This document shows positions 5,316 through 57,341 of a stretch of 64,000 nt of DNA, in pieces. The translations under genes were made by a program, and so were the position numbers. The notes below the pieces were generated by a model that saw only the letters and a list, made by a program, of their open reading frames with translations, had not been told where the DNA came from and made no database searches. Origin of the DNA: Candidatus Marithrix sp. (lineage in GTDB: Bacteria; Pseudomonadota; Gammaproteobacteria; Beggiatoales; Beggiatoaceae); assembly GCA_016744775.1 (NCBI GenBank), contig JADGDS010000003.1, positions 124,001 to 188,000 of the forward strand, in the 5' to 3' direction. Each line of letters opens with the position of its first letter. Position 1 is the stretch's first letter.

Positions 5316-8300
5316 TCATAAATACGATTCTAAGAAATCACACATTTTATTAACTTCAAAACGCTTTATAAACTGATTTAATTCTGTTGCAAAAGTTGCA
5401 AACTTTTCATCCTCTTCCACTAGTTTAGCCACTTGTTCTTTAATGGTTCTAACATCACCACTCATAGCAAGTTCAAATAAATTTTCTATGATTTCTTTAG
5501 ATGGTAATATTAATGGAGCAGTGCTAACTGTGTTAGAAACAACATCTTCATAAATCCATTCTACTGATAAATATCGTTGCAAGTATTCAAATAAGCGTTC
5601 AACTTTAATTGGTTTCGGTAAGAAGGCATTACAACCCGCCTTTAAACTACTTTGATGATCCTCTTCAAAAACACGCGCTGAGCTAGCAATGATTATTGTA
5701 TTGCTAAATAGTTGTCTAATTTCGCGCGTCATTTCAAAGCCATCCATTTCTGGCATCATTAAATCAGTAATAATTAGTTTCGGTTGATATTCAATTGCTT
5801 TCGTTAAACCTTCAATTCCATTACTAGCTTCTATGATTTCAAATCCGATTGGTGCCAGTATATCAATTAATAATTGTCTATTATCTGGTTTATCATCTAC
5901 TATTAAAATTAATGGGGTTTCAGAAATTATGCCTTTTATTTTTCTGGTTTCTACATTGGCAATTGCAGTGAAATCTTTGACTTTTGGTAAATTTAAATCA
6001 AACCAAAAGCTGCTACCTTTGCCTAATTCACTTGTTACTTGTAATGTTCCACCCATTAATTCAACTAAGTTGTGGCTAATCGCTAAGCCTAAGCCAGTGC
6101 CTTGGATTTGACGTTGTTTATCACCAACTTGCTGAAAGGGTTTAAAAATAGTTTCAATTTCATCAGATGCAATGCCAATACCAGTATCTTGTATCTGAAA
6201 ACGAATCAATGAATTTTCGATGGTTTTAACTTTAAATGTTACACCTTGATGATCAGTAAATTTAACCGCATTACCAAGCAGATTAATCAAGACTTGGCGT
6301 AAGCGTTTTTCATCGCCATGCACCGCTCCTAATTTATCATCATCTAATTGAGATTTAAAATAAATATTTTTATGCTCAGCACGAATACGAACGATTTCAG
6401 TAATAGTTCTAAGAAAACTAGACAGTTCAAAATCGCTAGTATCAAGCTCAATTTTACCCGCCTCAATTTTGGCTAAATCCAGCACATCATTAATCAAAGT
6501 TAAAAGATGATCACCACTTTGTTCAATAATATTTAAGCCATCTTGAGCGCGTTGATTTAGCGACGAATCATTTTTTAAAATTTGAGCATAGCCTAAAATA
6601 CCATTCAGCGGCGTGCGTAATTCATGACTCATAGTAGCAAGAAACTGACTTTTAGCTTGATTAGCTAAATCAGCCACTTCTTTTGCAATTTTTAATTTAG
6701 AAATTCCAATATGTGTTTTCAGACGAGCGATTAATTCTTGCTTACTAATAGGTTTAGTCAAATAATCATTTGCACCTACTTCTAAACCTGTTACTAAATC
6801 TTCGATTTGATTTTTTGCGGTTAATAATAAAATAGGTAAATCAATAGCACCCCAAGTTTCACGTAATTTGCGTGTTACTTCATAACCAGTCATAGAAGGC
6901 ATCATAACATCAAGCAAAATAGCGTCAGGTTTTAAACCATCATTTATCATCGCCAATGCCTCAGCACCACTGCTAGCTTGTATAATACGATAGTCTTGTA
7001 AAGATAAATAGTTACTAACAACTTGTAAATTAATAGGCTCATCATCTACAATTAATATTGTATAAGTTTTATCATTTTTTGGTTGAGAATGGTGGGTATC
7101 GCTTTGCTCTACCCACCCTACATTATCTACTAGAGTAGGGTGGGTAGAGCGATAGCGAAACCCACCATGTTCAGGTTTTTGTTTAGAAATAGGCAAAGTA
7201 AATATAAAAGTAGAACCAATACCCGGCGTAGATTCAAACCATATTTTACCACCATGCAATTCAATTAATTGTTTGGTAACAGCTAAACCTAATCCTGTGC
7301 CACCATATTTTCTAGCAATACCACCATCAGCTTGCTCAAAAGATTTAAAGATTCTGTCTTGTTTATTTGCAGCAATACCAATCCCGGTATCGGTAATACT
7401 TATTTGAATATGAGAATTTTGTCGCTGTGCTGAAATTTCGACGCTACCCTGTTCAGTAAATTTAATCGCATTACCAATCAGATTATATAATATTTGTTGT
7501 AAGCGATTTTCATCAGCAAACACTGGAGGCAAATCTAAATCAATTTTATTAACCAACTTAATTGGTTTTTTAGCTAACATTGATTGGCTAATCATCAGCA
7601 CACAATCAACTTGTTCTCGTAAACTGACTGATTTCTGTTGTAATTCAAGTTGTTGATGTTTTAATTTGGAAAAATCCAGAATATCATTAACTAAATTAGA
7701 TAAGCGTTTGCCACTAGTAACAATCAATTGCAAATTAGCCTTAGTTTTATCAGATAAATCACCACTAACACCATCTATTAAAGAATCAGCAATACCAATA
7801 ATTCCATTTAAGGGTGTTCTTAATTCATGAGAAGTATTAGCTAAAAATTCATCTTTTAACTTATCAGCCTCTTGCAAACGTTCATTAATTTCACGAGCTT
7901 TGCGTAATTTTTTCTGTTGAGCGAGAAATAAAGCGATTAAAGTACCTACAATTAAAATGCTATAAACTAAATAAGCCCACCATGTTTGCCACCAAGGTGG
8001 TGTAATAATTACTTTAATTGAGGTGCCTGTTTGATTCCAAAGCCCATCATTGTTTGAGGCTTTGACTTTGAAACTATATTCACCGGCATCTAAATTGGTA
8101 TAAGTAGCAAAGCGTCGTTTACTATCAACATAATTCCATGTCTTATCAAAACCTTCCATCATATAAGCATATTGATTTTTTTGTGAGGCTCGATAATTTA
8201 AAGCGGCAAATTTAATAGTAAATACTGATTGATCATAAGATAAACTAACTTGTTTACCCATACTAATTGAGCGATGAAAGACTTGAAAATCAGTCAATAC

Positions 8301-10250
8301 CACTGGTGGAATATATGAATTATCAACTAACTTATCTGGATAAAAAGCGTTAAAGCCATTGAGACCACCTAAAAACAATTCACCAGTTTTGCTTTTATAA
8401 GCGGCATCATTTAAAAAGAAGTTATTTTGCAACCCATCATAACGATCATAATTTCTGAACTTTTCAGTTTGAAGATTAAATTTTGATATGCCTTTATTGG
8501 TGCTGAACCATAAATTACCCTGATTATCCTCTAAGATTTCAGTCACATTATTACTAGCTAAACCATGCTTAGTGCGATAAACAGTAAAATTATTAGTAGT
8601 GGAATTTAACTTATTTAAACCATCATTAGTTCCCACCCAAATAGTGCCGTTACTATCTTCATATGATGTATTAATGAAACCATTGCTTAAACCAGAATAA
8701 TGAATGAAAGTATCATTTTTAGGATTGATTTTAGTTAAGCCAGTTTCTGTTCCAACCCATACATTATCATTGGAATCTACCATAATATGAGTAACCCAAT
8801 TAGAAATTAAGTTTTGATTATAATGCTTAAAAGTTTCAGTGACAGGATCAAATTTATCAACTCCACCACCATCCATACCAATCCAGATATTGCCTTGAGA
8901 ATCAACATCAATAGTTAAAATTGAATCATTATTTAAGCCCTTGGATTTATTATAATGAACAAAACTTTCAGTGACAGGATTAAATTTATTTAATCCACCG
9001 CCACCAGTGCCAATCCAAAGTATGCCTTTATCGTGGCGCAAACTCATAATTGAGTTATTACTCAGACTATTTGGATTATTTTTATCATATTTATAGTGAA
9101 CAAACTTATTGCTTTTTCTATCAAATTTATTTAAACCACCACCTTCTGTGCCTAGCCAAAGAATTGCATTTTCATCTTGATAAATTGTAGAAACTTGTTT
9201 ATCACTAAGGCTATTTAAGGTTTTTGGATTATGTTGATACAGAGCAAATCTATAATCACCGGGATCATATTTATTAAGCCCATTATTTGTGGTTATCCAT
9301 AAAGTTTTGGTTTTATCTTCATTGATAGCCCAGATAGTATTATCGCTAAGACTATTTATATCAGCATTATTTTCCTGAAACCTAGTAAATTTTTTCTTTG
9401 CTGGATCAAATAAATTTAGCCCATTATAAGTTCCAACCCATAATCTACCACTGCTATCTTCATAAATAGACAAGATATTATCATCAGGCAAATAATGAAC
9501 AATCTTCTCAGTTTTGGGATCAAATTGATCTAAACCATTTTCTGTACCTAACCAAAGTTTATCCTTACTATCCCAATATAGGCACCACAAAGAATTATTA
9601 CTTAAATCATAACGAACAAACTTTTCCGTTTTAGGATCAAATTTATTTAAACCGCCACCATAGGTGCTAATCCAAAAGATACCAGTTTTATCCTCATAAA
9701 TGCGCGTGACACTATCACTACTAATGCTGTGAGGATTTTTTGAATCATGTCGATAATGAGTAAAGGTTTCAGTAACAGGATCAAATTTATTTAAACCACC
9801 TTCATCAGTTCCAATCCATAAAATACCAGCCTTATCTTCATAAACATTCCAAACATTATCATGACTTAAACTATTGGAATTATTTTTGTCATGCTGATAA
9901 CGAATGAACCGCTGAGTGACAGGATCAAATTTATTAAAACCACCACCCCAAGTGCCAACCCATAAAATACCAGCACTATCTTCAAGCAAACTCCATATAT
10001 AATTATTACTAATAGTATGTGAATTATCAGGATCATAACTATAAACGCTAAACTCGGCTCCATCATATTTATTTAAGCCATTTTTACTTCCAACCCATAA
10101 AAAGCCTTTGCGATCTTGCAATACAGGAATGACAAAATTATCTGATAAACCATCATCAATAGTCAGATGTTTAAACTTAATAGTGTCAGCATATACTAGC
10201 TGCAAACTTAAAGACCATAATATAAGTATATAGTTAATTGAAATTTTCAT
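5316..10250 (-). CDS. Hybrid sensor histidine kinase: beta-propeller sensor with two kinase and two receiver modules
   Basis: This 1644-residue protein starts with a signal peptide (1-21). About 600 residues of two-component-regulator-propeller repeats follow (recurring D..G.LW.GT..GLN.FDP), then a Y_Y_Y domain near 690-745 and one membrane helix near 750-780. The cytoplasmic part is HisKA ([10 protein letters not shown] ~806), HATPase ([16 protein letters not shown]), receiver 1 (LLDVMMP, Asp ~1113), a second HisKA (~1206), a second HATPase (NLLGNAVKF), receiver 2 (IITDLMMPE, Asp ~1493) and a helical C-terminus. No DNA-binding output is fused. The periplasmic sensor resembles those of Bacteroidetes polysaccharide sensors, but the ligand is unknown. 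A palindromic repeat is embedded in frame between HATPase 1 and receiver 1. It is a close paralogue of the kinase at 11055-14744. Confidence 0.93.
7090..7167. repeat. 78-bp palindromic repeat inserted in frame in the sensor kinase gene
   Basis: Arms of about 30 bp (TGGTGGGTATCGCTTTGCTC... and ...GAGCGATAGCGAAACCCACCA) flank a short loop. The length is a multiple of three and the reading frame stays open. It adds about 26 residues ([17 protein letters not shown]... to ...SDTHHSQ) in the linker between the first HATPase domain and the first receiver. The GTAGG.TGGG core is related to the repeat at 60090-60150. Confidence 0.85.
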
Positions 10251-45220: not shown

Positions 45221-46954
45221 ATGCAATATCCCTTAACCGAAAAAATAGGCGATCCAGAGTTACTAGTTGGGCGAGAAAAGGAATTTAAACACTTTGGCAA
45301 ATGGATAAAAAACATACCCAAAAGACTATCCAAATCCAGAGTAATAATAGCCAGAAGGAAAAGTGGCAAAACTAGCTTTGTACAACGAATTTTTAACCAA
45401 TTATGGACAGAAAATAAAGAAGTTATACCATTTTATTTTGAATTTGATGAAAATAAAATGTGGTATCCAGATTTGGCTATTGATTATTATCGTGCTTTTG
45501 CTTCACAGTATATTTCTTTTATTACTCAAAACCAAAACTTGATACTACATCATTTATCTTTGGAGCAAATTAGAGAATTTGGCATAAAGGAATCAATTAC
45601 AATTCTAATTGATGATGTTGATTTTCTAATTAAAAATAAAGAAATTGGAGGTAGTCATGGATTAATGTGGAAAACTGCTTGTACAGCACCACATCGTTTT
45701 GCTTCAGTTCTTGATACTAAATTTTTAGTAATTTTAGATGAATTTCAAAATATTACTAAATATATTTATCCAGATCAATTCTATAAAGAAGAAGCAATTG
45801 AAACTTTAGCTGGCAGTTATCATTCTCTTGCCGAATCAAAAGTTGCTCCAATGTTAGTAACTGGTTCCTATGCAGGTTGGCTATTAAAAGTTATTAGTCA
45901 ATATTTAGAAGCTGGAAGACTAAGTCAAATACGCTTTTCTCCTTATTTAACTGAGGATGAAGGTTTAGAAGCAGTTTATAAATATGCCTCATTTTATGAA
46001 GAGCCGATTACTAATGACACTGCTATGCAAATTAATAAATTGTGTATGGCTGATCCATTTTTTATCTCTTGTGTAATAGTTAGTGAGTATGAGGATAAAG
46101 ATTTAACCACCTCAAAAGGGGTAGCAGATACTGTTGATTATGAACTTTCAGAAGAAAATGCTGAAATGTACTTAACTTGGGGAGAATATATTCATCATAC
46201 TGTAAATGAAGTAAATGATAAAAATGCAAAAAATATTTTATTGTTTTTGAGTAAAAATAATGAAAAATATTTTACACCGACAGATTTGAAACGCGAATTA
46301 ACATTGAATTTAGAAGTTAATGAAATTCATAAACAATTAATTGTTTTAAAAGAAGCTGATTTGATTACTAGGGCTGTTTCTAATATTAATTTTAGAGGCT
46401 TGCAAGATGGTACACTAAATTTAATTTTACGTAAGAGTTTTGAAGAAGAAATCAAAGATTTTGCGCCTGATTTTAAACAAGAGTTTGCTGATAAAATTGC
46501 TGAATTAAAGAAGGAAAAGAAACAACTACAGGGTAAGTTAAATTCTTTATCTGGCAAAATTGCTGAAAATATGTTAGCCACTGCTTTAAGAAATAAAAAA
46601 CGTTTTAGTCTATCTAAATTTTTTAAGAATGTTAAAGATAATACGATTTTAAATATTCAAAAAGTCAAAGAAAGGGTTCATATTCAGCGTGAAGATGGCA
46701 AAAATATGGAACTTGATATTGTAGCTCAATCTTCATGTGGTAGAGCTGTTTTAGTGGAAGTTAAAAAAACTCAGGCTAAAACTGGTTTAAACAAAGTTGA
46801 AGACTTTCAAGAGAAAGTTGAGGTTTATAAAACTACTTTTCCTGACGCTATTGTTTTAGCGGCTTATTTATCCTTGGGTGGATTTACTGATGAGGCTGCT
46901 GATTTTTGTTTGAAATATGGAATTGCTGTGGCTGAGAGAATTGAAGAATTGTAA
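45221..46954 (+). CDS. ATPase with C-terminal PD-(D/E)XK-like domain, tandem copy 1
   Basis: 577 residues. The start region contains [15 protein letters not shown] and Walker A ARRKSGKTSFVQRIF; Walker B is FLVILDEFQNITKYI, with a sensor-like APMLVTGSYAGWLL. Winged-helix and linker regions follow, then a coiled coil (EFADKIAELKKEKKQLQGKL). The C-terminal nuclease-like fold shows ELDIVAQSS and VLVEVKK (D...E-x-K). It resembles archaeal-type STAND/AAA ATPases fused to a restriction-like domain. Function unknown; selfish or defence roles are plausible. It is nearly identical to the next gene, and a C-terminal remnant exists at 10491-10725. Confidence 0.85.
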   Translation: MQYPLTEKIGDPELLVGREKEFKHFGKWIKNIPKRLSKSRVIIARRKSGKTSFVQRIFNQLWTENKEVIPFYFEFDENKMWYPDLAIDYYRAFASQYISFITQNQNLILHHLSLEQIREFGIKESITILIDDVDFLIKNKEIGGSHGLMWKTACTAPHRFASVLDTKFLVILDEFQNITKYIYPDQFYKEEAIETLAGSYHSLAESKVAPMLVTGSYAGWLLKVISQYLEAGRLSQIRFSPYLTEDEGLEAVYKYASFYEEPITNDTAMQINKLCMADPFFISCVIVSEYEDKDLTTSKGVADTVDYELSEENAEMYLTWGEYIHHTVNEVNDKNAKNILLFLSKNNEKYFTPTDLKRELTLNLEVNEIHKQLIVLKEADLITRAVSNINFRGLQDGTLNLILRKSFEEEIKDFAPDFKQEFADKIAELKKEKKQLQGKLNSLSGKIAENMLATALRNKKRFSLSKFFKNVKDNTILNIQKVKERVHIQREDGKNMELDIVAQSSCGRAVLVEVKKTQAKTGLNKVEDFQEKVEVYKTTFPDAIVLAAYLSLGGFTDEAADFCLKYGIAVAERIEEL

Positions 46955-47001: not shown

Positions 47002-48735
47002 ATGCAATACCCCTTAACCGAAAAAATAGGCGATCCAGAATTACTAGTTGGGCGAGAAAAGGAATTTAAACACTTTGGCAAATGGATAAAAAACATACCC
47101 AAAAGACTATCTAAATCCAGAGTAATAATAGCCAGAAGGAAAAGTGGCAAAACCAGCTTTGTACAACGAATTTTCAACCAACTTTGGAGTGAAAATGGAG
47201 CTGTGATTCCATTTTATTTTGACTTTGGTGAAAATAAAATGTGGTATCCAGACTTGGCAATTAAATATTACCGAGCTTTTGCTTCACAATATATTTCATT
47301 TATTACTCGAACTCCAAACTTGGTAATAGATCATTTATCTTTGGAACAAATAAGAGAATTTGGTATAAAGAAATCCATTACACCTATAGTTGATGATGTT
47401 AATTTTATAATTGAAAACAAAGATGTTGGAGGTAGTCATGGTTTAATGTGGGATACTGCTTGTACAGCACCACATCGTTTTGCTTCAGTTCTTGATACTA
47501 AATTTTTAGTAATTTTAGATGAATTTCAAAATATTACTAAATATATTTATCGAGATGAAAAATGCAAAGAAGAAGCTGATGAAACTCTAGCTGGTAGTTA
47601 TCATTCTCTTGCCGAATCAAAAGTTGCTCCAATGTTGGTAACTGGTTCTTATGCTGGTTGGCTATTAAAAGTTATTAGTCAATATTTAGAAGCAGGTAGG
47701 TTGAGTCAAATACGCTTTTCCCCTTATTTAACCGAGGATGAAGGTTTAGAAGCAGTTTATAAATATGCCTCATTTTATGAAGAGCCGATTACTAATGACA
47801 CTGCTATGCAAATTAATAAATTGTGTATGGCTGATCCATTTTTTATCTCTTGTGTAATAGTTAGTGAGTATGAGGATAAAGATTTAACCACCTCAAAAGG
47901 GGTAGCAGATACTGTTGATTATGAACTTTCAGAAGAAAATGCTGAAATGTACTTAACTTGGGGAGAATATATTCATCATACTGTAAATGAAGTAAATGAT
48001 AAAAATGCAAAAAATATTTTATTGTTTTTGAGTAAAAATAATGAAAAATATTTTACACCGACAGATTTGAAACGCGAATTAACATTGAATTTAGAAGTTA
48101 ATGAAATTCATAAACAATTAATTGTTTTAAAAGAAGCTGATTTGATTACTAGGGCTGTTTCTAATATTAATTTTAGAGGCTTGCAAGATGGTACACTAAA
48201 TTTAATTTTACGTAAGAGTTTTGAAGAAGAAATCAAAGATTTTGCGCCTGATTTTAAACAAGAGTTTGCTGATAAAATTGCTGAATTAAAGAAGGAAAAG
48301 AAACAACTACAGGGTAAGTTAAATTCTTTATCTGGCAAAATTGCTGAAAATATGTTAGCCACTGCTTTAAGAAATAAAAAACGTTTTAGTCTATCTAAAT
48401 TTTTTAAGAATGTTAAAGATAATACGATTTTAAATATTCAAAAAGTCAAAGAAAGGGTTCATATTCAACGTGAAGATGGCAAAAATATGGAACTTGATAT
48501 TGTAGCTCAATCTTCATGTGATAGAATGGTTTTAGTGGAAGTTAAAAAAACTCAGGCTAAAACTGGTTTAAACAAAGTTGAAGACTTTCAAGAGAAAGTT
48601 GAGGTTTATAAAACTACTTTTCCTGATGCTATTGTTTTAGCGGCTTATTTATCTTTGGGTGGATTTACTGAAGAGGCTGCTGATTTTTGTTTGAAACATG
48701 GAATTGCTGTGGCTGAGAGAATTGAGGAATTGTAA
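47002..48735 (+). CDS. ATPase with C-terminal PD-(D/E)XK-like domain, tandem copy 2
   Basis: 577 residues with the same architecture and motifs as copy 1. Differences concentrate in residues ~66-195 (for example SENGAVIPFYFDFGENK against TENKEVIPFYFEFDENK), while residues ~1-65 and ~200-500 are practically identical. A few changes lie at the end (SSCDRMVLVEV; GFTEEAADFCLKHG). The uneven pattern fits duplication followed by gene conversion or local diversification after the Walker A region. It starts 47 bases after copy 1. Confidence 0.85.
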   Translation: MQYPLTEKIGDPELLVGREKEFKHFGKWIKNIPKRLSKSRVIIARRKSGKTSFVQRIFNQLWSENGAVIPFYFDFGENKMWYPDLAIKYYRAFASQYISFITRTPNLVIDHLSLEQIREFGIKKSITPIVDDVNFIIENKDVGGSHGLMWDTACTAPHRFASVLDTKFLVILDEFQNITKYIYRDEKCKEEADETLAGSYHSLAESKVAPMLVTGSYAGWLLKVISQYLEAGRLSQIRFSPYLTEDEGLEAVYKYASFYEEPITNDTAMQINKLCMADPFFISCVIVSEYEDKDLTTSKGVADTVDYELSEENAEMYLTWGEYIHHTVNEVNDKNAKNILLFLSKNNEKYFTPTDLKRELTLNLEVNEIHKQLIVLKEADLITRAVSNINFRGLQDGTLNLILRKSFEEEIKDFAPDFKQEFADKIAELKKEKKQLQGKLNSLSGKIAENMLATALRNKKRFSLSKFFKNVKDNTILNIQKVKERVHIQREDGKNMELDIVAQSSCDRMVLVEVKKTQAKTGLNKVEDFQEKVEVYKTTFPDAIVLAAYLSLGGFTEEAADFCLKHGIAVAERIEEL

Positions 48736-49142: not shown

Positions 49143-52100
49143 ATGAAAAGTTTAAATCAATATCCATTATCATCAAGCCAAAAAGAAATTTGGTTTGATC
49201 AATCATTATCTCCTAATATACCTCTATACAATATCGGTGGATATTTACATATATCTGGCGCAATTGATATTAAGGTTTTTGAGAAAAGCCTTAATCAGCT
49301 TATTCAAGAATATGATGCTTTAAGAATTAAATTACAACAATCTTCAGAAGGTTTTGCTGTTCAAACTATTAAAGAATATGTTGACTTTCATCTTGATTAT
49401 CATGAATTTTCTGGAAATACTGAAGCTATGACTTGGATGAATAAAGAATTCAAACAAGTTTTTAAATTTGAAGATGAATTGTTATTTCAATTTGCCTTAT
49501 TAAAAATAGCAGATAATTGTTATTATTATTTTATGAAATTTCATCATCTTATTGTTGATGGATATGCTATTTCCTTAATGAATCAACGCTTGGCAACAAT
49601 ATATAACGCTATGATAAATCAAGAACAGCTTGATGAAGTAGTTGGTTATTCTTATATTGATTTTGTCAAAAAAGATCAAGCCTATTTTGATTCTGATCAA
49701 TACACATCTCATAAAAATTATTGGTTAGAAAAATATCAGGAAATTCCAGAGCCGCTTATTAAAGCTGTCGCTACATTTGAAAGTAAAAGTTCTACTTTAG
49801 AATTGGATCGTGAGCATTATAACCAATTGATTCAGTTTGCAGAATCACATAATGTATCCACATTTCATCTGATCTTAGGCGCACTTTATTGTTATTTTAC
49901 TAAAACCACTGGTAGAGATGATTTTGTCATTGGATTACCAATATTAAATCGAAATAATGCCGCTTTTAAACAAACAGTTGGTATGTTTGCTAGTGTTAGT
50001 GCTGCTTGGTTTCGTTTTGGAACAGATTTAAATTTTATTCAGCTTATTCAGGCTATTAGTCAAGAATTAAAACAAAATTATCGTTATCAACGTTTTCCAA
50101 TTAGTGAAATTAATCGTCAATTAGGTTTACAAATAGAAGGTAGAAAGCAGCTTTTTGATATTACATTATCTTATGAAAAGCATGATTATGATGCTAATTT
50201 GGGTGGTAATCCAGTTGAAGCTCTGACATTAAATAATGGTTGTGAACAAAATCCTTTAAATATTTATATCCGCGAGTTTCATAATCATCATAATGTGAAA
50301 GTAGATATAGAATATAATTCCGGCGCGTTTACTGAGTCTGAAATTGAACAATTTAAATTGCGTTTTAAAGCATTGTTAAACAATATCCTTGATGGCAGTC
50401 ACTTGGCTATTCGGGAATTGCAAATTATGCCTGAGTTAGAAAGGGAAATTATTTTAACTAAATTTAATCATACAGCGACTGATGAGTTATCATCAGATAC
50501 AACTGTAATTGAATTATTTGAGCAACAAGTCGCAAAAAATCCTGATAAAGTTGCGGTTACTTTTGAAGATCAACAACTGACTTATCAGCAATTAAATTGT
50601 CGCGCTAATCAATTAGCACATTATCTTCAGGATATGGGAATTCAGCCTGAAGTCTTAGTTGGGCTTTGTATTGGGCGTTCTCATGAAATGTTAATTGGAT
50701 TGTTAGGAATTATGAAGGCAGGAGCCGCTTATTTGCCATTAGATCCTAATGTTCCAGCGGCACGTAATGCCTTTTTATTAGAAGAAGCTCAAATACAAGT
50801 ATTAGTTACTATTCAAACTGTTATCGCTGGATGGTCGATTGATCAAGCTCATGTCATTTGTTTAGATACTTTAAATGATACATTATCAGAACAAAAAACT
50901 GATAATCCAATAAATAATTTATTGGGACATAATTTAGCTTATGTTATTTATACATCAGGCTCAACAGGTAAACCTAAAGGGGTTATGATTGAGCATCATA
51001 GTCTAACTTCTCATACTCAAGCTATTATTGAACATACTGAGTTAAACGCTAATGATAAAATCTTACAATTTGCTCCAATAAATTTCGATGTTTCAATTGA
51101 AGAAATATTTCCTACATTATTAAGCGGCAGCACACTGGTATTACATCCCTCTAAACTATTTGCCTCATTAAGCGATTTTCAAAAATTTCTTGGTTCAGAA
51201 CAAATAAGCGTCACCCATTTACCATCATCTTATTGGCATGAATGGGTATTAGAATTATCAAAAACCAAGGCTAAATTACCAGAAAGTTTACGTTTAGTGG
51301 TGACTGGCAATGATAAGGTAATATTAGAGCGGGTTAAGTTATGGCAACAATGTGTAGCTGATCAACCAATAAGATTATTTAATGCTTATGGTCCAACTGA
51401 GGCTACAATTACTAGTACTATTTATGAAGTAACAGCTAATACCAATGGATTATCATCAGTGCCAATTGGTCGCCCGATTGCTAATACTCAAACTTATATA
51501 TTAGATAAATACATGCAGCCTACACCAATAGGTGTAGCTGGTGAATTATATATTGCTGGTACAGGTATAGCGCGATCTTATTTGTATGATCCTGAATTAA
51601 CTGAAGAAAAATTTGTTTATAATCCTTTTTCTGATAATTCACTTTTATATAAGACAGGTGATATAGCGCGTTATTTAGCAGATGGTAATATTGAATATAT
51701 TGGGCGTAATGATAATCAAGTAAAAATACGTGGTTTCCGTATTGAGCTTGGAGAAGTTGAAGCGGCACTGAATCAACATCCAGAAGTAAGAGAAACAGTA
51801 GTTCTCACAGAACTTGATAAATACAATAATAATCAATTAGTAGCATATATAGTTTCAAACTGGATTCCTGATCGGATACCTTATCAAACCGCTTGCTTGG
51901 CTGAGGTTGAAGGCGAAACTGTAAAACTCAGAACAGAAGATATTTCTTCTGGAGGTGTTGGATTAGAAGAAGTTCCAATCAATTTTTGCGAAGGGCAACA
52001 TATTCGTTTATACTTACAATTACCCGGTGAACAACAAGAATGTTGGCTCAATGGAACTGTGACATGGGCACGTTCACCTCAAGCAGGTATTAAATTTCAT

Positions 52101-53777
52101 CTAACACCGATGGAACAAATTTTACTTGAACAAAGCATGGAATATCTATTAGAATTCCAAGGGTTTTTAAAATCTTTACAACGGATAGTTGCAGGTAATT
52201 TAACTAATTATGTGAAAGAAATATTGCCGAAATACATGATGCCGTCTCGCTTTGTGTTATTAAACTCATTGCCTCGCACTGCTAATGGCAAAATAAATCG
52301 TCAAGCTGTTACTAGAAAATCTATTAAGAAAAAATCAAGAGAAGTTGAAGTTTTGACTCCAACTGAAAAAGTCATTTCAACTCTTTGGGGTGAAATATTA
52401 GGATGCGACAATATCAGTATCTATGATAATTTCTTTAAATTAGGTGGACATTCATTACATGTAATGCAATTCGTTTCCAGAATTTCTGTTGCAATGAATA
52501 TTGAAAACTTAGTGAAAAAATTATTTGATAATCCGACCATTTCAGAATTGGCTAAGGATCTTGAAGGCATTATAGAAAAACCAAAACAACCAGAAACACC
52601 AAGACAAAATCCAACAAATTCTCCTATTTTAGAACGTCGTTCGCTGCTTTCCTTATTCGCCGTTGGCAAAATAGCTCCAGTAGATGCAGCCGCTATAAGT
52701 TATTTACCAACTAACTTCCTTGAGTCTAATGATAATCATACACGCGATCAAATTATTCATCAAGGATTAGATAATTTACCATTGTGGTACAGCGTCTTAG
52801 AAACTAAATGGGGGCGTATTGCCTTATTATTATTACCTAGATTAGCTACTGAAATTTATAGCAATAAGCAAGATTTCATTGACACAATTATTGACGCTAT
52901 GGAAATGGCTGGAAGGATAGGTGCGCGTACTGTTTCTTTAACCGGTTTAATTCCATCAGCAACTGATTATGGATGTGCAATAAAGGCTCCTAAAGGCTTA
53001 CCAACAGTAACAACTGGTCATGCTACCACTACTGCTACGGTGATTATGACTATCAAAAAAATGTTAGAACTTAGTAATCGTGACATTAGTAAACAACGAA
53101 TAGCATTTCTAGGTTTAGGCTCTATTGGTTATAATAGTTTACGTTTAATGTTGCGCGTATTGCCTCATCCTACTGAAATACTACTTTGTGATATTCAGCG
53201 CGATGCACTAACAAAAATTAAAGCCGAATTAAATTTCAGCGGCAAAATAAGTATTATAATTTCAGAAACTAATACGGTACCAGATGAAATTTATGATGCT
53301 AATTTGATAGTTGGTGCGACTAATGTTCCTAATATACTTGATATTAATAAAGTAAAACCGGGCACGATTATTGTTGATGACTCAGCTCCCCATTGCTTTA
53401 TACCAGAAATAGCAATTGAACGTTTCAAAAACCAAGCAGACATACTATTTAGCGAAGCTGGAGTAATGAAATCACCAGAACCTATTATAGAACAATTGCA
53501 TTTACCACGTAATTTAGAAGATAAAATATCAAACACACAACTAAAATACTTACTAAAACATAACCCATCTGAGATTACCGGTTGTATTTTCTCTAGTCTC
53601 CAAACGTCTGTATATAAATATATAGAAGCAACAACAGGTACAATTGAAGAACAACAAACTGTAAAAGCATATGAAAACTTATGCTCATTAAACTTTGAAG
53701 CCGCTGACTTACATTGCGAAGAATATATACTTGCTGAAGAAGGAATAGAGAAATTTAAAAATGGAAACTATAGCTAA
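49143..53777 (+). CDS. Single-module NRPS (C-A-PCP) with a PilZ-like insert in the A domain and a C-terminal acyl-ACP-reductase-like domain
   Basis: 1544 residues. Condensation domain at ~8-440 (active HHLIVDG, 134-140). Adenylation from ~460 (YTSGSTGKPKG ~603, NAYGPTEATI, YKTGDIARY). Between core motifs a8 (RIELGEVEAAL) and a9 (LPKYMMPSRFVLL) lies an insert at ~905-1010 resembling PilZ: RIPYQTACLAEV, then D933-x-S-x-x-G (DISSGG), QHIRLYLQLPG, and GTVTWARSPQAGIKFH. The second Arg of the RxxxR c-di-GMP motif is Gln. PCP has LGGHSL (~1103). Residues ~1165-1530 resemble cyanobacterial acyl-ACP reductase (ETKWGRI, GARTVSLTGL, VTTGHATTTATVI, GLGSIG ~1323), suggesting reductive release. A hand-read specificity code, DVEHVGAIT, keeps Asp235 for an alpha-amino acid; the substrate is unresolved. 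It overlaps the next gene by 17 bases. Confidence 0.88.
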   Translation: MKSLNQYPLSSSQKEIWFDQSLSPNIPLYNIGGYLHISGAIDIKVFEKSLNQLIQEYDALRIKLQQSSEGFAVQTIKEYVDFHLDYHEFSGNTEAMTWMNKEFKQVFKFEDELLFQFALLKIADNCYYYFMKFHHLIVDGYAISLMNQRLATIYNAMINQEQLDEVVGYSYIDFVKKDQAYFDSDQYTSHKNYWLEKYQEIPEPLIKAVATFESKSSTLELDREHYNQLIQFAESHNVSTFHLILGALYCYFTKTTGRDDFVIGLPILNRNNAAFKQTVGMFASVSAAWFRFGTDLNFIQLIQAISQELKQNYRYQRFPISEINRQLGLQIEGRKQLFDITLSYEKHDYDANLGGNPVEALTLNNGCEQNPLNIYIREFHNHHNVKVDIEYNSGAFTESEIEQFKLRFKALLNNILDGSHLAIRELQIMPELEREIILTKFNHTATDELSSDTTVIELFEQQVAKNPDKVAVTFEDQQLTYQQLNCRANQLAHYLQDMGIQPEVLVGLCIGRSHEMLIGLLGIMKAGAAYLPLDPNVPAARNAFLLEEAQIQVLVTIQTVIAGWSIDQAHVICLDTLNDTLSEQKTDNPINNLLGHNLAYVIYTSGSTGKPKGVMIEHHSLTSHTQAIIEHTELNANDKILQFAPINFDVSIEEIFPTLLSGSTLVLHPSKLFASLSDFQKFLGSEQISVTHLPSSYWHEWVLELSKTKAKLPESLRLVVTGNDKVILERVKLWQQCVADQPIRLFNAYGPTEATITSTIYEVTANTNGLSSVPIGRPIANTQTYILDKYMQPTPIGVAGELYIAGTGIARSYLYDPELTEEKFVYNPFSDNSLLYKTGDIARYLADGNIEYIGRNDNQVKIRGFRIELGEVEAALNQHPEVRETVVLTELDKYNNNQLVAYIVSNWIPDRIPYQTACLAEVEGETVKLRTEDISSGGVGLEEVPINFCEGQHIRLYLQLPGEQQECWLNGTVTWARSPQAGIKFHLTPMEQILLEQSMEYLLEFQGFLKSLQRIVAGNLTNYVKEILPKYMMPSRFVLLNSLPRTANGKINRQAVTRKSIKKKSREVEVLTPTEKVISTLWGEILGCDNISIYDNFFKLGGHSLHVMQFVSRISVAMNIENLVKKLFDNPTISELAKDLEGIIEKPKQPETPRQNPTNSPILERRSLLSLFAVGKIAPVDAAAISYLPTNFLESNDNHTRDQIIHQGLDNLPLWYSVLETKWGRIALLLLPRLATEIYSNKQDFIDTIIDAMEMAGRIGARTVSLTGLIPSATDYGCAIKAPKGLPTVTTGHATTTATVIMTIKKMLELSNRDISKQRIAFLGLGSIGYNSLRLMLRVLPHPTEILLCDIQRDALTKIKAELNFSGKISIIISETNTVPDEIYDANLIVGATNVPNILDINKVKPGTIIVDDSAPHCFIPEIAIERFKNQADILFSEAGVMKSPEPIIEQLHLPRNLEDKISNTQLKYLLKHNPSEITGCIFSSLQTSVYKYIEATTGTIEEQQTVKAYENLCSLNFEAADLHCEEYILAEEGIEKFKNGNYS
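51855..52130 (+). other. PilZ-like domain inserted in the adenylation C-subdomain
   Basis: This is the coding segment of the insert described in the NRPS entry, between the LVAYIV strand and the A9 motif, the site where methyltransferase domains insert in some NRPSs. It contains one Arg (R911) and the DISSGG motif (933-938), followed by beta-strand-like alternation typical of PilZ. A normal A domain passes directly from LVAYIV to A9 with ~25 residues. Confidence 0.65.
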
Positions 53778-54609
53778 GTGGCATTTCGCAATGCTGAACG
53801 ATAAAAAGCGAAATCAGGCGATTGAAAATGCTATTTTAGACTTAAATTTAAACAACAAAATAGTATTTGAAATAGGTACAGGCTCTGGGTTATTTTCTAT
53901 ACTATTTGCCAGAAATGGTGCTTCGCATGTATATACATGTGAACAAAATCCCATTATGGGATCTATAGCATCTAAGCTTATTAATAGCAGTGGTTATTCT
54001 AATATTATTAGCTTGTATCCAGAATCATCATCAACTTTAATTCGTAAAAAAAATTTCAATATCAAACCAGATATAATTTTTACAGAGACTCTGGATTGTG
54101 GAATTATCGGTGAAGGATTTCAGGAAATCAAACAAGATATTATCAAAATAGCAAATGATAATACAGAAATACTACCAAACAATATAAATAAACTAGGAGT
54201 ATTAATCAATTCAAATAGTATTGTGAACTTAAATAAAGTTGATAGCTATTCTCAAATAGATATTAGTTATCTAAATCAATATAGTACAAGCACATACTTT
54301 CCAGTGAGATCAGAAATGTTTGAATCTGAATGGCTTTCAGAATCAACATTAATCAAAAAATATGATTATAAATCTATTGAACCGCCGGAGAGTTTTTTTT
54401 CTATAACCGCAACTAAGGATGGAATATGTCATGGAATTCTATCGTGGTTTCAGATTGAACTTGGAAAACAAGAAGTGACTACCAAACCAAACTCTGGTAG
54501 TCACTGGCATCAAGCATTTCATCCTCTCGAAAATTTCATTGAAGTCACCAAGGGGCAAAAATATCATTTTGTTCTAAACAATAAAGCTAGAATAGTTGAA
54601 AAATTTTAG
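53761..54609 (+). CDS. SAM-dependent methyltransferase of PRMT7/9-like type
   Basis: 282 residues. Motif I is FEIGTGSGLFSILFARNGA, followed by VYTCEQN and the double-E-like loop TETLDCGIIGEG, very close to the PRMT7/PRMT9 sequence VTETVDAGLFGEG. The C-terminal half has the PRMT beta-barrel elements (ATKDGICHGILSWFQIEL, HWHQAFHPLENFIEVTKGQ). PRMTs methylate arginine side chains; in a bacterial cluster the acceptor may instead be the peptide, the NRPS product or another amine. Its start lies inside the end of the NRPS gene, so translation is coupled. Confidence 0.8.
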   Translation: METIAKWHFAMLNDKKRNQAIENAILDLNLNNKIVFEIGTGSGLFSILFARNGASHVYTCEQNPIMGSIASKLINSSGYSNIISLYPESSSTLIRKKNFNIKPDIIFTETLDCGIIGEGFQEIKQDIIKIANDNTEILPNNINKLGVLINSNSIVNLNKVDSYSQIDISYLNQYSTSTYFPVRSEMFESEWLSESTLIKKYDYKSIEPPESFFSITATKDGICHGILSWFQIELGKQEVTTKPNSGSHWHQAFHPLENFIEVTKGQKYHFVLNNKARIVEKF

Positions 54610-54615
54610 GCTAAT

Positions 54616-54628
54616 ATATTGCATATAT
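54616..54628 (+). promoter_or_regulatory. Shared 13-mer ATATTGCATATAT, site 1
   Basis: An exact copy occurs at 56627-56639. Both copies precede a transcription start candidate of small cluster genes by 60-90 bases. This may be a common operator or promoter part. Confidence 0.35.
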
Positions 54629-54686
54629 CATTGAATATGTTCTCATAGGCAGAGCATATCTTAATTTATAATCTTAGGTGATAAAA

Positions 54687-54815
54687 ATGGAACTAAAAGA
54701 CAAAGATCAAGATCAAATTAAAGAACTTAAAGAAAGCTATGAAAAGCCTAAAATAACTACCTATACTGAAGAAGATATTATGAATCAGTATAAAGTTGTT
54801 GGTTTTTCTTTCTAA
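54687..54815 (+). CDS. 42-residue peptide, RiPP-precursor-like
   Basis: ATG at 54687 follows TTAGGTGATAAAA, a good ribosome binding site, and ends at TAA 54813-54815. The N-terminus is charged (MELKDKDQDQIKELK), then SYEKPKITTYTEEDI and a C-terminal YKVVGFSF. Y-x-x-P-x-I/L is the leader motif recognised by PqqD/RRE-type B1 proteins in lasso and related RiPPs, and the next gene is such a protein. There is no Gly/Ser followed by Asp/Glu 7-9 residues later, so a lasso ring is not predicted. The penultimate Ser41 could be phosphorylated by the HprK-like kinase, as in paeninodin. The assignment as precursor is inference. Confidence 0.7.
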   Translation: MELKDKDQDQIKELKESYEKPKITTYTEEDIMNQYKVVGFSF

Positions 54816-54876
54816 TATCCTACTCACCATTAGCTTTTTTCCTAGGCTAATGGTAATCAATCATAATGGAGAAAAA

Positions 54877-55152
54877 ATGCTTAAACATACAATTATAACA
54901 CCTCTCAAAAAAGATAAAATAGTCATTAAAAATATTGGTAATGAGCTTGTACTTTATAATGCCGAAACTAAAGCCATACATGTTCTCAACAATACATCTT
55001 CTATGGTATGGGAGTATTGTGATGGTAAACATAATCTTGAAATGATTGAGAACAAAATAAGGGAAAAATTTAAAGTATCCAGTGCTGAGGATATAAAGTA
55101 CGACATAAGAGAAACTTTAAACAAGTTCAATGAACTAGGATTGATTGAATAA
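54877..55152 (+). CDS. PqqD-family peptide-binding protein (RiPP recognition element)
   Basis: 91 residues from the ATG at 54877, preceded by GGAGAAAAA; an earlier in-frame start at 54796 would overlap the peptide gene. The sequence has the PqqD winged-helix pattern: IVIKNIGNELVLYNAETKAIHVLNNTSSMVWEYCDGKHN, then ENKIREKFKV and a helical end LNKFNELGLIE. PqqD-like domains bind leader peptides and bring them to modifying enzymes. It overlaps the kinase gene by one base (TAATG). Confidence 0.85.
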   Translation: MLKHTIITPLKKDKIVIKNIGNELVLYNAETKAIHVLNNTSSMVWEYCDGKHNLEMIENKIREKFKVSSAEDIKYDIRETLNKFNELGLIE

Positions 55153-56174
55153 TGATAGAAAATATTATTCTCAAAGATTTAAAAGCTAAAGCCAGATATT
55201 CAGATGAATATTGCTTGTTAGGTATAAATTTTACAGTTAAATTTGATTCTGCTTTAGCACGTGAACATTATTATAATAATTATAAACATTTTAAGGTAAA
55301 TTATTCAAAAAAAAATGATACCTATTACATTATTTCTGATGCTGCATCAATAGGCAAACCTTTAGTAATTGTAGAAAGTGAAACAGTAAACAATTTACAA
55401 GATATATTCTTAATAGGCAGCAATAAACGTAGGTTTAAACTAGAGAAAGAGAAAGATAATTCTTGCACAATTACTGATAGCTTTTTATCTGACAAGCCAA
55501 CCATGATTGTGGAAGATAAAACTTGTATAATTTTAGATTCTAAGCTCTGGAATTCTTACGCAGAACACATAATATTCAATTCTATTCTTTCTCAAATTCC
55601 AAATCATTATCTTCTTCATGCTGGCGTAGTTTCTTGGGAAAATCAAGGAATAGTTATCTGTGGTGCTTCAAATCAAGGCAAAAGCACGCTCACTTTAAAA
55701 TTGGTAGAAAATGGCTTTAAATTTCTATCTGATGAAGTTGCTTCTATTGATTTGGCTAGTTGTGAATTATCACCATTTCCGAGAGCGTTAGGATTTAGAA
55801 AAGATACATTAGCTAAAATTCCTGCACTGAATGATTTAAATGAAAGAGAAAGCGGTAAATCGCTAAACGGTGAAGATAAATGGACTGTGGATATAGATAA
55901 TATTTATCCAAATTCTTTAGGAACTAAATGTCAGCTTCGTTATTTAATTTTTCTCAATGGATTCTCAAAAACTCCTAAATTAACAGCTATTTCTAAATCT
56001 AAAGTTCTCTTTGAATCCTTAAAATATTCACGTACCGGTGAAGATGATCCTTTTAAGCACTTTATGGCTATGTCAAATGTAGTTCAAACGGCTGAATGTT
56101 ATAAATTTGATCTTGGAAATAGTGAAGAAAATGTAAAATTATTAAAGGAATTAATCGAAAGGAAAAATGAATAA
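55152..56174 (+). CDS. HPr-kinase-like P-loop protein (HprK-related)
   Basis: 340 residues. The kinase core is in the second half: LLHAGVVSWENQGIVICGASNQGKSTLTLKLV with P-loop GASNQGKST, FLSDEVASID (HprK-type acidic residues), and FPRALGFRKDTLAKI. The N-terminal ~140 residues are not recognised and may bind substrate. HprK homologues in RiPP clusters phosphorylate a C-terminal Ser of the precursor (known for the paeninodin family), or form 'HPr-rel' systems with PqqD proteins. It overlaps both neighbouring genes by a few bases. Confidence 0.85.
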   Translation: MIENIILKDLKAKARYSDEYCLLGINFTVKFDSALAREHYYNNYKHFKVNYSKKNDTYYIISDAASIGKPLVIVESETVNNLQDIFLIGSNKRRFKLEKEKDNSCTITDSFLSDKPTMIVEDKTCIILDSKLWNSYAEHIIFNSILSQIPNHYLLHAGVVSWENQGIVICGASNQGKSTLTLKLVENGFKFLSDEVASIDLASCELSPFPRALGFRKDTLAKIPALNDLNERESGKSLNGEDKWTVDIDNIYPNSLGTKCQLRYLIFLNGFSKTPKLTAISKSKVLFESLKYSRTGEDDPFKHFMAMSNVVQTAECYKFDLGNSEENVKLLKELIERKNE

Positions 56175-56607
56175 GGAAAAAAATAATCTGACTCTACAAG
56201 ATTCCATAACCAATACTGTTTTTGAAATTTGGCAGCAAGCTGATAAAGAAACTCAACTCCAAATTTCAGGCAATAGTATGAATCCCATGATTAAAAACGG
56301 CGACTGGCTGGTGCTAAAACATAATAGTAATGATATAAAAATTGGTTCTATTATTGCCTATAGGAGAGAACAAAAAATTATAGTCCATCGTGTAATTAAA
56401 ATAGACCATAATTCTTTGTTTACCAAGGGTGATTTTAACTTTCATGTTGATCCAGTTGTTGATGTTAAAAATATCATTGGTAAAGTGATAGCGGTTAAAA
56501 ACAGAAAGCGATTATTTCGCATAGATACAATATATTGGAATATAGTAGCTTATATTATCGCTAGCTTCCCCCTTATTTTCACTAGAATTTCTAGATTTTT
56601 ATCATAA
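56167..56607 (+). CDS. S24/S26-family signal-peptidase-like protein
   Basis: 146 residues. LQISGNSMNPMIKNGDWLVLKH holds the catalytic Ser; IVHRVIKI supplies a His rather than Lys, as in archaeal/ER-type (SEC11-like) signal peptidases. FTKGDFNFHVDPV and IIGKVIAV complete the fold. A C-terminal membrane segment (IVAYIIASFPLIFTRI) anchors it. Genes of this type accompany PqqD/HprK-related systems and may process the peptide or the secreted protein downstream. It overlaps the kinase gene by 8 bases. Confidence 0.85.
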   Translation: MNKEKNNLTLQDSITNTVFEIWQQADKETQLQISGNSMNPMIKNGDWLVLKHNSNDIKIGSIIAYRREQKIIVHRVIKIDHNSLFTKGDFNFHVDPVVDVKNIIGKVIAVKNRKRLFRIDTIYWNIVAYIIASFPLIFTRISRFLS

Positions 56608-56639
56608 CCATATTAATATGGTGGACATATTGCATATAT
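56608..56639 (+). promoter_or_regulatory. Palindrome CCATATTAATATGG plus shared 13-mer, site 2
   Basis: The 14-bp perfect palindrome (56608-56621) is followed by ATATTGCATATAT (56627-56639), identical to the 13-mer before the 42-residue peptide gene. It lies 75 bases before the ATG of the secreted protein and looks like a separate regulatory region inside the cluster. Confidence 0.4.
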
Positions 56640-56714
56640 TACAGATAACATTGATAGATTATGAATCTGTCAAATGTAATCAAACTTATTATTAAGTCAT
56701 TTAAGGTTAATATT

Positions 56715-57341
56715 ATGAATAATATTATGCGATTACCAATAGTTTTAGCTATTGGTTTAAGTTTTCCAATTTATGCAAATGCTGAAGATAATGTCCCACC
56801 AACTTGTGAAGCTACATTTGTAGGTTTTAATGATAACAGCGAGAAATTCGCGCAATTCACTACTTCTGATGATACAGCTCTACTTAACACTACTATTACC
56901 GAAATGGTAAATGGCACAACAAGCTTCTATCATTCAGGTGCTGGCAATAATACTCCCACAATATTTATTGCTACAAAGATTGATCAAAGTCAGAAAGCAA
57001 TTCTGAATGCTGAGGTTACTGATACAGCAGGAAACGTAAGCAATTGCAGTGACGCAATAGTTCTAACAGTCAAAGATAATGGCAAGTCAGATCGCAAAAC
57101 CTATCCTAGTATTCCTAAAAAAGCAGATAGTAATGTAATTGTACATGTTCAAAACGGTAATCCCGGTATTGATAAACTTAAGATTAAAGTAAACGGTACC
57201 CCACATGAATTCACTTTAGCCGCTGGGTATCAACCAATAGATATATCATCTTTTATGTCAGTAGGAAACAATAATGAAATTATCTTTACTGGCACAGGCG
57301 ATCTGGGTAATATTGCATATATAATTATGATTGCCAGCTGA
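56715..57341 (+). CDS. Secreted protein of unknown function
   Basis: 208 residues from the ATG at 56715; a start at 56661 would place charged residues before the signal. The signal peptide LPIVLAIGLSFPIYANA ends with an ANA cleavage site. Two beta-rich parts follow: ~20-130 with an Ig-like feel (EVTDTAGNVSNCSD, two Cys that could form a disulfide) and a C-terminal part (VIVHVQNGNPGIDKLKIKVNG, then AYIIMIAS). It is not a family I recognise. Its position after the S26 peptidase suggests it may be a substrate or the exported end product of the cluster. Confidence 0.7.
   Translation: MNNIMRLPIVLAIGLSFPIYANAEDNVPPTCEATFVGFNDNSEKFAQFTTSDDTALLNTTITEMVNGTTSFYHSGAGNNTPTIFIATKIDQSQKAILNAEVTDTAGNVSNCSDAIVLTVKDNGKSDRKTYPSIPKKADSNVIVHVQNGNPGIDKLKIKVNGTPHEFTLAAGYQPIDISSFMSVGNNNEIIFTGTGDLGNIAYIIMIAS

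Follow-up and report, generated by a model that had tools for sequence, protein, structure and literature searches.

The window analysed in this study is a 64,000-nt stretch of DNA from Candidatus Marithrix sp. (assembly GCA_016744775.1, contig JADGDS010000003.1, positions 124,001-188,000 of the forward strand). On its plus strand lie, one after the other, a small precursor peptide gene (54687..54815), a gene for a discrete RRE with the PqqD fold (91 aa, 54877..55152), an HprK-like kinase gene (340 aa, 55152..56174), a gene for an archaeal/SipW-type signal-peptidase-like enzyme that is a candidate leader peptidase (146 aa, 56167..56607), and a gene for a secreted protein (56661..57341). The preliminary description of this DNA had placed the small ORF directly before PqqD and near an HprK-like kinase, and both placements held, with the PqqD start 61 nt past the precursor stop and the HprK-like ORF running from 55152; it had overlooked the signal-peptidase-like gene and the link to a nucleotidyltransferase.

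The small ORF is translated into MELKDKDQDQIKELKESYEKPKITTYTEEDIMNQYKVVGFSF (54687-54812, 42 aa) and ends with a stop codon at 54813-54815. The peptide carries a leader motif, Y18-x-x-P21-x-I23, a predicted leader end at V37-V38-G39, a putative phospho-acceptor, S41, and a C-terminal F42. SYEKPKI had been proposed as a leader motif bound by PqqD/RRE proteins, and YxxPxI is indeed such a motif. Upstream of the ORF, TTAGGTGATAAAA is a plausible Shine-Dalgarno sequence, with the stretch TAGGTGA at 54676..54682 (plus strand) ahead of the ATG, and Shine-Dalgarno-like stretches are also found 5' of the ATG in the precursor genes of relatives. The length of the ORF is weak evidence, since shuffling the 267-nt interval 5000 times gave an ATG ORF of at least 42 aa in 175 cases (3.5%). 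It is the homology to intact orthologues by which the 42-codon ORF is judged a real gene.

Searches of the precursor-family peptides against Pfam and NCBIfam gave nothing above cut-off, an Rfam scan of the precursor region gave no match, and a promoter scan of the region did no better than shuffles. Copies of ATTGCATATAT occur 5' of the precursor gene (about 54618-54632), 5' of the secreted-protein gene (56630-56642) and near the 3' end of the latter (57313-57325), and they are a possible shared regulatory element.

Between the precursor and RRE genes, a predicted RNA hairpin (54826..54854, plus strand) folds at -14.3 kcal/mol (z -4.9), and none of 200 shuffles folds as well. The corresponding hairpin of a relative (-15.6, z -3.95) contains one A-T to C-G double change that preserves the pairing, and the stem survives in both Thiomargarita loci despite loop insertions of about 0.1-0.2 kb. 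It is not followed by a T-tract and is not a canonical terminator; therefore, it more likely acts on RNA stability or sets the ratio of precursor to enzymes than ends transcription.

The encoded enzymes and their neighbours

The RRE (Pfam PqqD, 43.7 bits) is the only PF05402 (PqqD-family) match in the genome, and no close relatives of it were found in viral contigs and plasmids. A profile built from eleven relatives has LppB (9x8z) as its best PDB match (E 1.1e-5), followed by the lasso RREs TbiB1 and TfuB1. In the AlphaFold model (pLDDT 80), three strands and three helices are laid out as in an RRE, and the model resembles the leader-bound lasso RREs 5v1u, 5v1v and 6jx3; the best solved match is LppB by sequence profile and TbiB1 by fold. 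N33 and D70 of LppB hold the kinked Pro and the Tyr of the leader in place (PMC13381572), and N38, which is invariant, and D76 of the window RRE align with them.

The kinase contains a P-loop, GASNQGKS, and an SDE motif. It scores 69.5 bits against TIGR04352 (cut-off 200) and 24.3 bits against Pfam Hpr_kinase_C (under cut-off), and it reaches the curated cut-off of none of the kinase families. No relative has lost the G-K of the P-loop or the S-D motif. PEP carboxykinases and HprK have a common fold, and the kinase model (pLDDT 78) matches both.

The signal-peptidase-like enzyme passes TIGR02228, archaeal signal peptidase I (65.5 bits, cut-off 51.85), as do the orthologues from two related loci, L017 and L019. 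S37, H74, D89 and D95 are its invariant residues, and S37, H74 and D95 are of the same residue types as the catalytic S29, H68 and D93 of LppS (PMC13381572).

The secreted protein has a signal-like N-terminus and is counted as an accessory by its repeated association with the cassette, one homologue being found beside the cassette in L017 (38% identity over part) and two in L019 (31-34%); its tie to the cassette is weaker than that of the other parts. An NTP_transf_5 gene adjoins the cassette in L017 and L019, and the genome of the window has one copy, on contig C9.

The NRPS and the PRMT-like methyltransferase encoded upstream were considered as cassette members and rejected, as they are absent beside the cassette in relatives. 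The NRPS-like protein itself (49143-53777) has a PilZ match (35.6 bits) at residues 911-992, within the C-terminal part of the adenylation domain, which suggests possible c-di-GMP control of an NRPS, and its C-terminus weakly resembles PigE/SbnB-type domains. Its gene overlaps that of the methyltransferase (53761-54609) by 17 nt. Elsewhere in the window, two near-identical genes for 577-aa ATPase/nuclease-like proteins stand in tandem (45221-46954 and 47002-48735), with a close relative near the peptide cassette in L019 (15207-16940), and an ORF at 750-1346 begins like a transposase and ends like an unrelated enzyme, which may mark the junction of an insertion.

Orthologues and the wider peptide family

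Intact orthologues of the precursor are present in another genome of the same genus, G027 (L019, 76% identity over the aligned part), and in two assemblies of Candidatus Thiomargarita nelsonii (L017, 73%; L018, 62%). Conservation of the ORF in homologous clusters, on which the preliminary description had staked its proposal, is thus what was found. All three orthologues end in GFSF, and each belongs to a cassette whose PqqD and HprK relatives show about 65-80% identity. Between the precursor and its nearest orthologue dN is 0.05 and dS 0.36, and dN is below dS in all six precursor pairs, each with few sites; by these estimates the orthologues are under purifying selection. The 42-residue small precursor ORF proposed earlier is therefore borne out.

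A peptide profile was built from the GFSF orthologues together with related peptides beside other HprK genes. It detected the family in 9 of 43 genomes of the order; among 369 genomes of the class and 398 of the phylum, evenly drawn, this genome alone matched. HprK relatives likewise occur in 9 of the 43 order genomes, eight of which also have the peptide family (hypergeometric p 5e-7, kinship ignored). One Thiomargarita genome, G038, has six family matches. A precursor for a second Thiomargarita-type cassette, in L021/L022, was looked for and not found.

Seven positions are invariant in the 13 intact peptides (M1, Y18, P21, I23, V37, G39 and S41, in window numbering), and S41 is the sole invariant Ser/Thr among them. 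The distance from Tyr to Ser is 23 residues in 13/13, with total lengths of 40 to 54. The GFS of the window branch corresponds to GCS in paralogues, and the tails past the Ser vary (F, PN, LQGGFD, AQAW, LQAM, LQAP, CQAPGGC, LQAPGP, PFDE). A reading of the paralogue LGC motif as that of a lipoprotein was rejected, as there is no hydrophobic signal segment and the GFSF branch lacks the Cys. The window's genome (G000) holds a broken second family copy on contig C9 (about 850598-850687, L049), with two in-frame stops and the Ser of GCS lost; it adjoins an ABC-2 transporter pair and the genome's sole NTP_transf_5 gene.

The expectation of a conserved leader with a variable core holds for the paralogues, whose residues past the Ser vary, but fails for the four orthologues, which all end in GFSF. 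Such a conserved rather than hypervariable C-terminus might be expected of an unmodified small protein, either regulatory or structural or an adaptor bringing the enzymes to their true substrates, the nearby secreted proteins; secreted proteins do recur next to the cassette. This alternative appears quite improbable, since YxxPxI and an RRE are a known leader-recognition pair, the tails of the paralogues vary as cores do, and the secreted neighbours differ between loci. Overall, it is highly probable that the 42-residue peptide is a RiPP precursor for the window RRE.

Proposed maturation of the peptide

The 54687 locus is probably a compact RiPP cassette, functioning in the manner of the linear polyphosphorylated peptides (LPPs) of Bacilli. 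In this proposal, which is drawn from sequence and structural models, the precursor is very probably docked, phosphorylated at one fixed Ser, and trimmed by the three proteins encoded downstream. The leader would dock on the RRE in beta-strand form, by way of Y18-x-x-P21-x-I23 (YEKPKI), and the RRE would present the C-terminus of the precursor to the kinase, which would phosphorylate S41, perhaps more than once. The constant distance of 23 residues between the docked Tyr and the Ser may serve as a ruler for the phosphorylation step. The signal-peptidase-like enzyme would then remove the leader, and the NTP_transf_5 enzyme may add a group to the phosphate.

Phosphorylation of S41 seems likely. 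The competing view is that the precursor serves the RRE while its defining modification is something else, so that the kinase-like protein has a different substrate or is a scaffold and the product is set by cleavage or by enzymes encoded elsewhere. The kinase scores under curated cut-offs would fit this view, as would a radical SAM/SPASM enzyme at a GCS paralogue locus and at other gammaproteobacterial RRE/S26/HprK loci. Nevertheless, it appears improbable: every kinase relative retains the P-loop and S-D motif, the modelled fold is that of HprK/PEPCK, S41 is the family's single invariant Ser/Thr, and the characterised set of RRE, SpI and HprK phosphorylates its precursor (PMC13381572).

Phosphorylation of the Ser remains the preferred reading, and the site of leader removal is proposed more tentatively. 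Signal peptidases prefer certain residues at -3 and -1, a preference that the invariant V-x-G fits, if only loosely, which makes G39 the likeliest cut. Since GCS paralogue loci often have no signal peptidase adjoining the peptide, V-x-G may serve another purpose, and cleavage after G39 is possible at somewhat less than even odds. Such a cut would give F-S(P)-F in the window and C-S-tail in the paralogues. The most far-reaching version is doubtful: the product would be an extremely short phospho-RiPP, of three residues here, and the 39-residue leader a throwaway guide whose 23-residue ruler is fixed. If it is true, the range of phosphate-carrying linear RiPPs would include giant sulfur bacteria along with other Gammaproteobacteria.

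A class-wide search queried with the signal-peptidase-like enzyme found further gammaproteobacterial loci with S26, HprK and RRE (L067, L068 and L069). L068 and L069 (4964-7906) each encode a YxxPxI peptide, an RRE, a radical-SAM-like enzyme, named by its CxxxCxxC-type sequence and not by profile, an HprK-like kinase and a signal-peptidase-like enzyme. In L067, a single ORF (8143-8859) matches both the signal-peptidase-like and the RRE profiles, which points to a fusion; it is followed by an HprK-like kinase and adjoins a C25-like protease, so named by its resemblance to other C25 proteins. Peptides of the GCS branch lie near gingipain-like C25 proteases, profile-confirmed in L023. There (5671-9200) and in L024 (6646-10286), a GCS-type peptide is accompanied by an adjacent radical SAM/SPASM enzyme, HprK, RRE and a nearby C25 protease, so that these RiPP clusters appear more elaborate. 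The toolbox of RRE, kinase and peptidase is thus combined with other chemistry elsewhere, and the window has the plain version.

Comparison with known systems

The preliminary description had drawn on paeninodin-type precursors, whose kinase acts on a C-terminal Ser (PMC8498205). Its sequence-based observation that the Ser is penultimate (S41-F42) stands and the 'C-terminal Ser' of its title does not; the paeninodin rule fails here, as the conserved Ser is penultimate in the window peptide and further inside in paralogues. Paeninodin/pseudomycoidin-type clusters share with the window system an HprK-homologue kinase, a discrete RRE and a nucleotidyltransferase (PMC8498205), whereas the window has neither B2 peptidase nor cyclase, its leader has YxxP rather than WxxP, and its peptide ends in S-F. 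The shared enzyme types would be explained if the locus were the remnant of such a lasso cluster, minus cyclase and B2 peptidase. This is already close to refuted and very improbable: PF13471 (lasso B2 peptidase) is absent from the genome and from 6 of 7 other peptide-bearing genomes tested, a signal-peptidase-like enzyme is present instead, and purifying selection acts on the four intact orthologues, whose neighbouring ORFs include no cyclase. A classical lasso peptide was rejected on the same absence of PF13471 from the genome and of a cyclase from the ORFs near the cassette, in keeping with the kinase-associated non-lasso RiPP suggested earlier.

HPr-rel-A systems (NCBIfam TIGR04352/TIGR04353) also pair an HprK-related kinase with a PqqD-family protein, and both window proteins match the models. 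Neither belongs to these families as curated, since both scores are below the cut-offs (69.5 vs 200 for the kinase; 27.6 vs 35 for the PqqD protein).

LPPs were described in May 2026 from the lpp cluster of Paenibacillus alginolyticus (PMC13381572). The precursor is presented by an RRE and receives phosphates from LppK at a single internal Ser, S3 of the core, and its leader is cleaved off by the SpI-like LppS, assisted by the RRE; the leader consensus is YxxPxVLxHQxIxFETxxS (PMC13381572). The window cassette likewise has, in one run, a YxxPx[V/I] leader, a discrete RRE paired with an archaeal-type SpI peptidase, and an HprK-like kinase, recognised by its P-loop, its fold and a profile match that stays under the family cut-offs. 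In both, the acceptor Ser (putative in the window) is not C-terminal, a cyclase is lacking, and the genome has an NTP transferase. Because the paeninodin kinase takes a C-terminal Ser and the LPP kinase an internal one, the LPP is the better parallel.

The differences are that the window cassette is gammaproteobacterial whereas LPPs are from Bacillota; that its leader has only the YxxPx[I] part, without HQxIxFET, whereas LPP leaders end in FET; that Tyr and Ser are 23 residues apart rather than 18; that the predicted core has 3 residues rather than 45; and that secreted proteins stand beside the window cassette, with NTP_transf_5 not beside the window copy. No MsbA-like exporter was recognised among the ORFs around the cassette in the window, L017 and L019. 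Since the full leader consensus and the exporter were sought and not found, the cassette is considered to work like an LPP system but is not filed as one.

LPPs are described as restricted to Bacillota (PMC13381572), a claim of the sole defining paper found in the open-licence literature; an earlier account of the peptides studied here in a subscription journal is possible. The LPP toolbox of RRE, HprK-like kinase and archaeal-type peptidase is now seen in bacteria of the Beggiatoaceae group, with related sets in other Gammaproteobacteria. The window precursor would supply a substrate for orphan PqqD/HprK pairs in proteobacterial genomes, and the fixed Tyr-to-Ser distance leads to a clear prediction of how the RRE sets the modification site. 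With a 42-residue substrate, one invariant Ser and three enzymes, the window cassette is a minimal, testable system.
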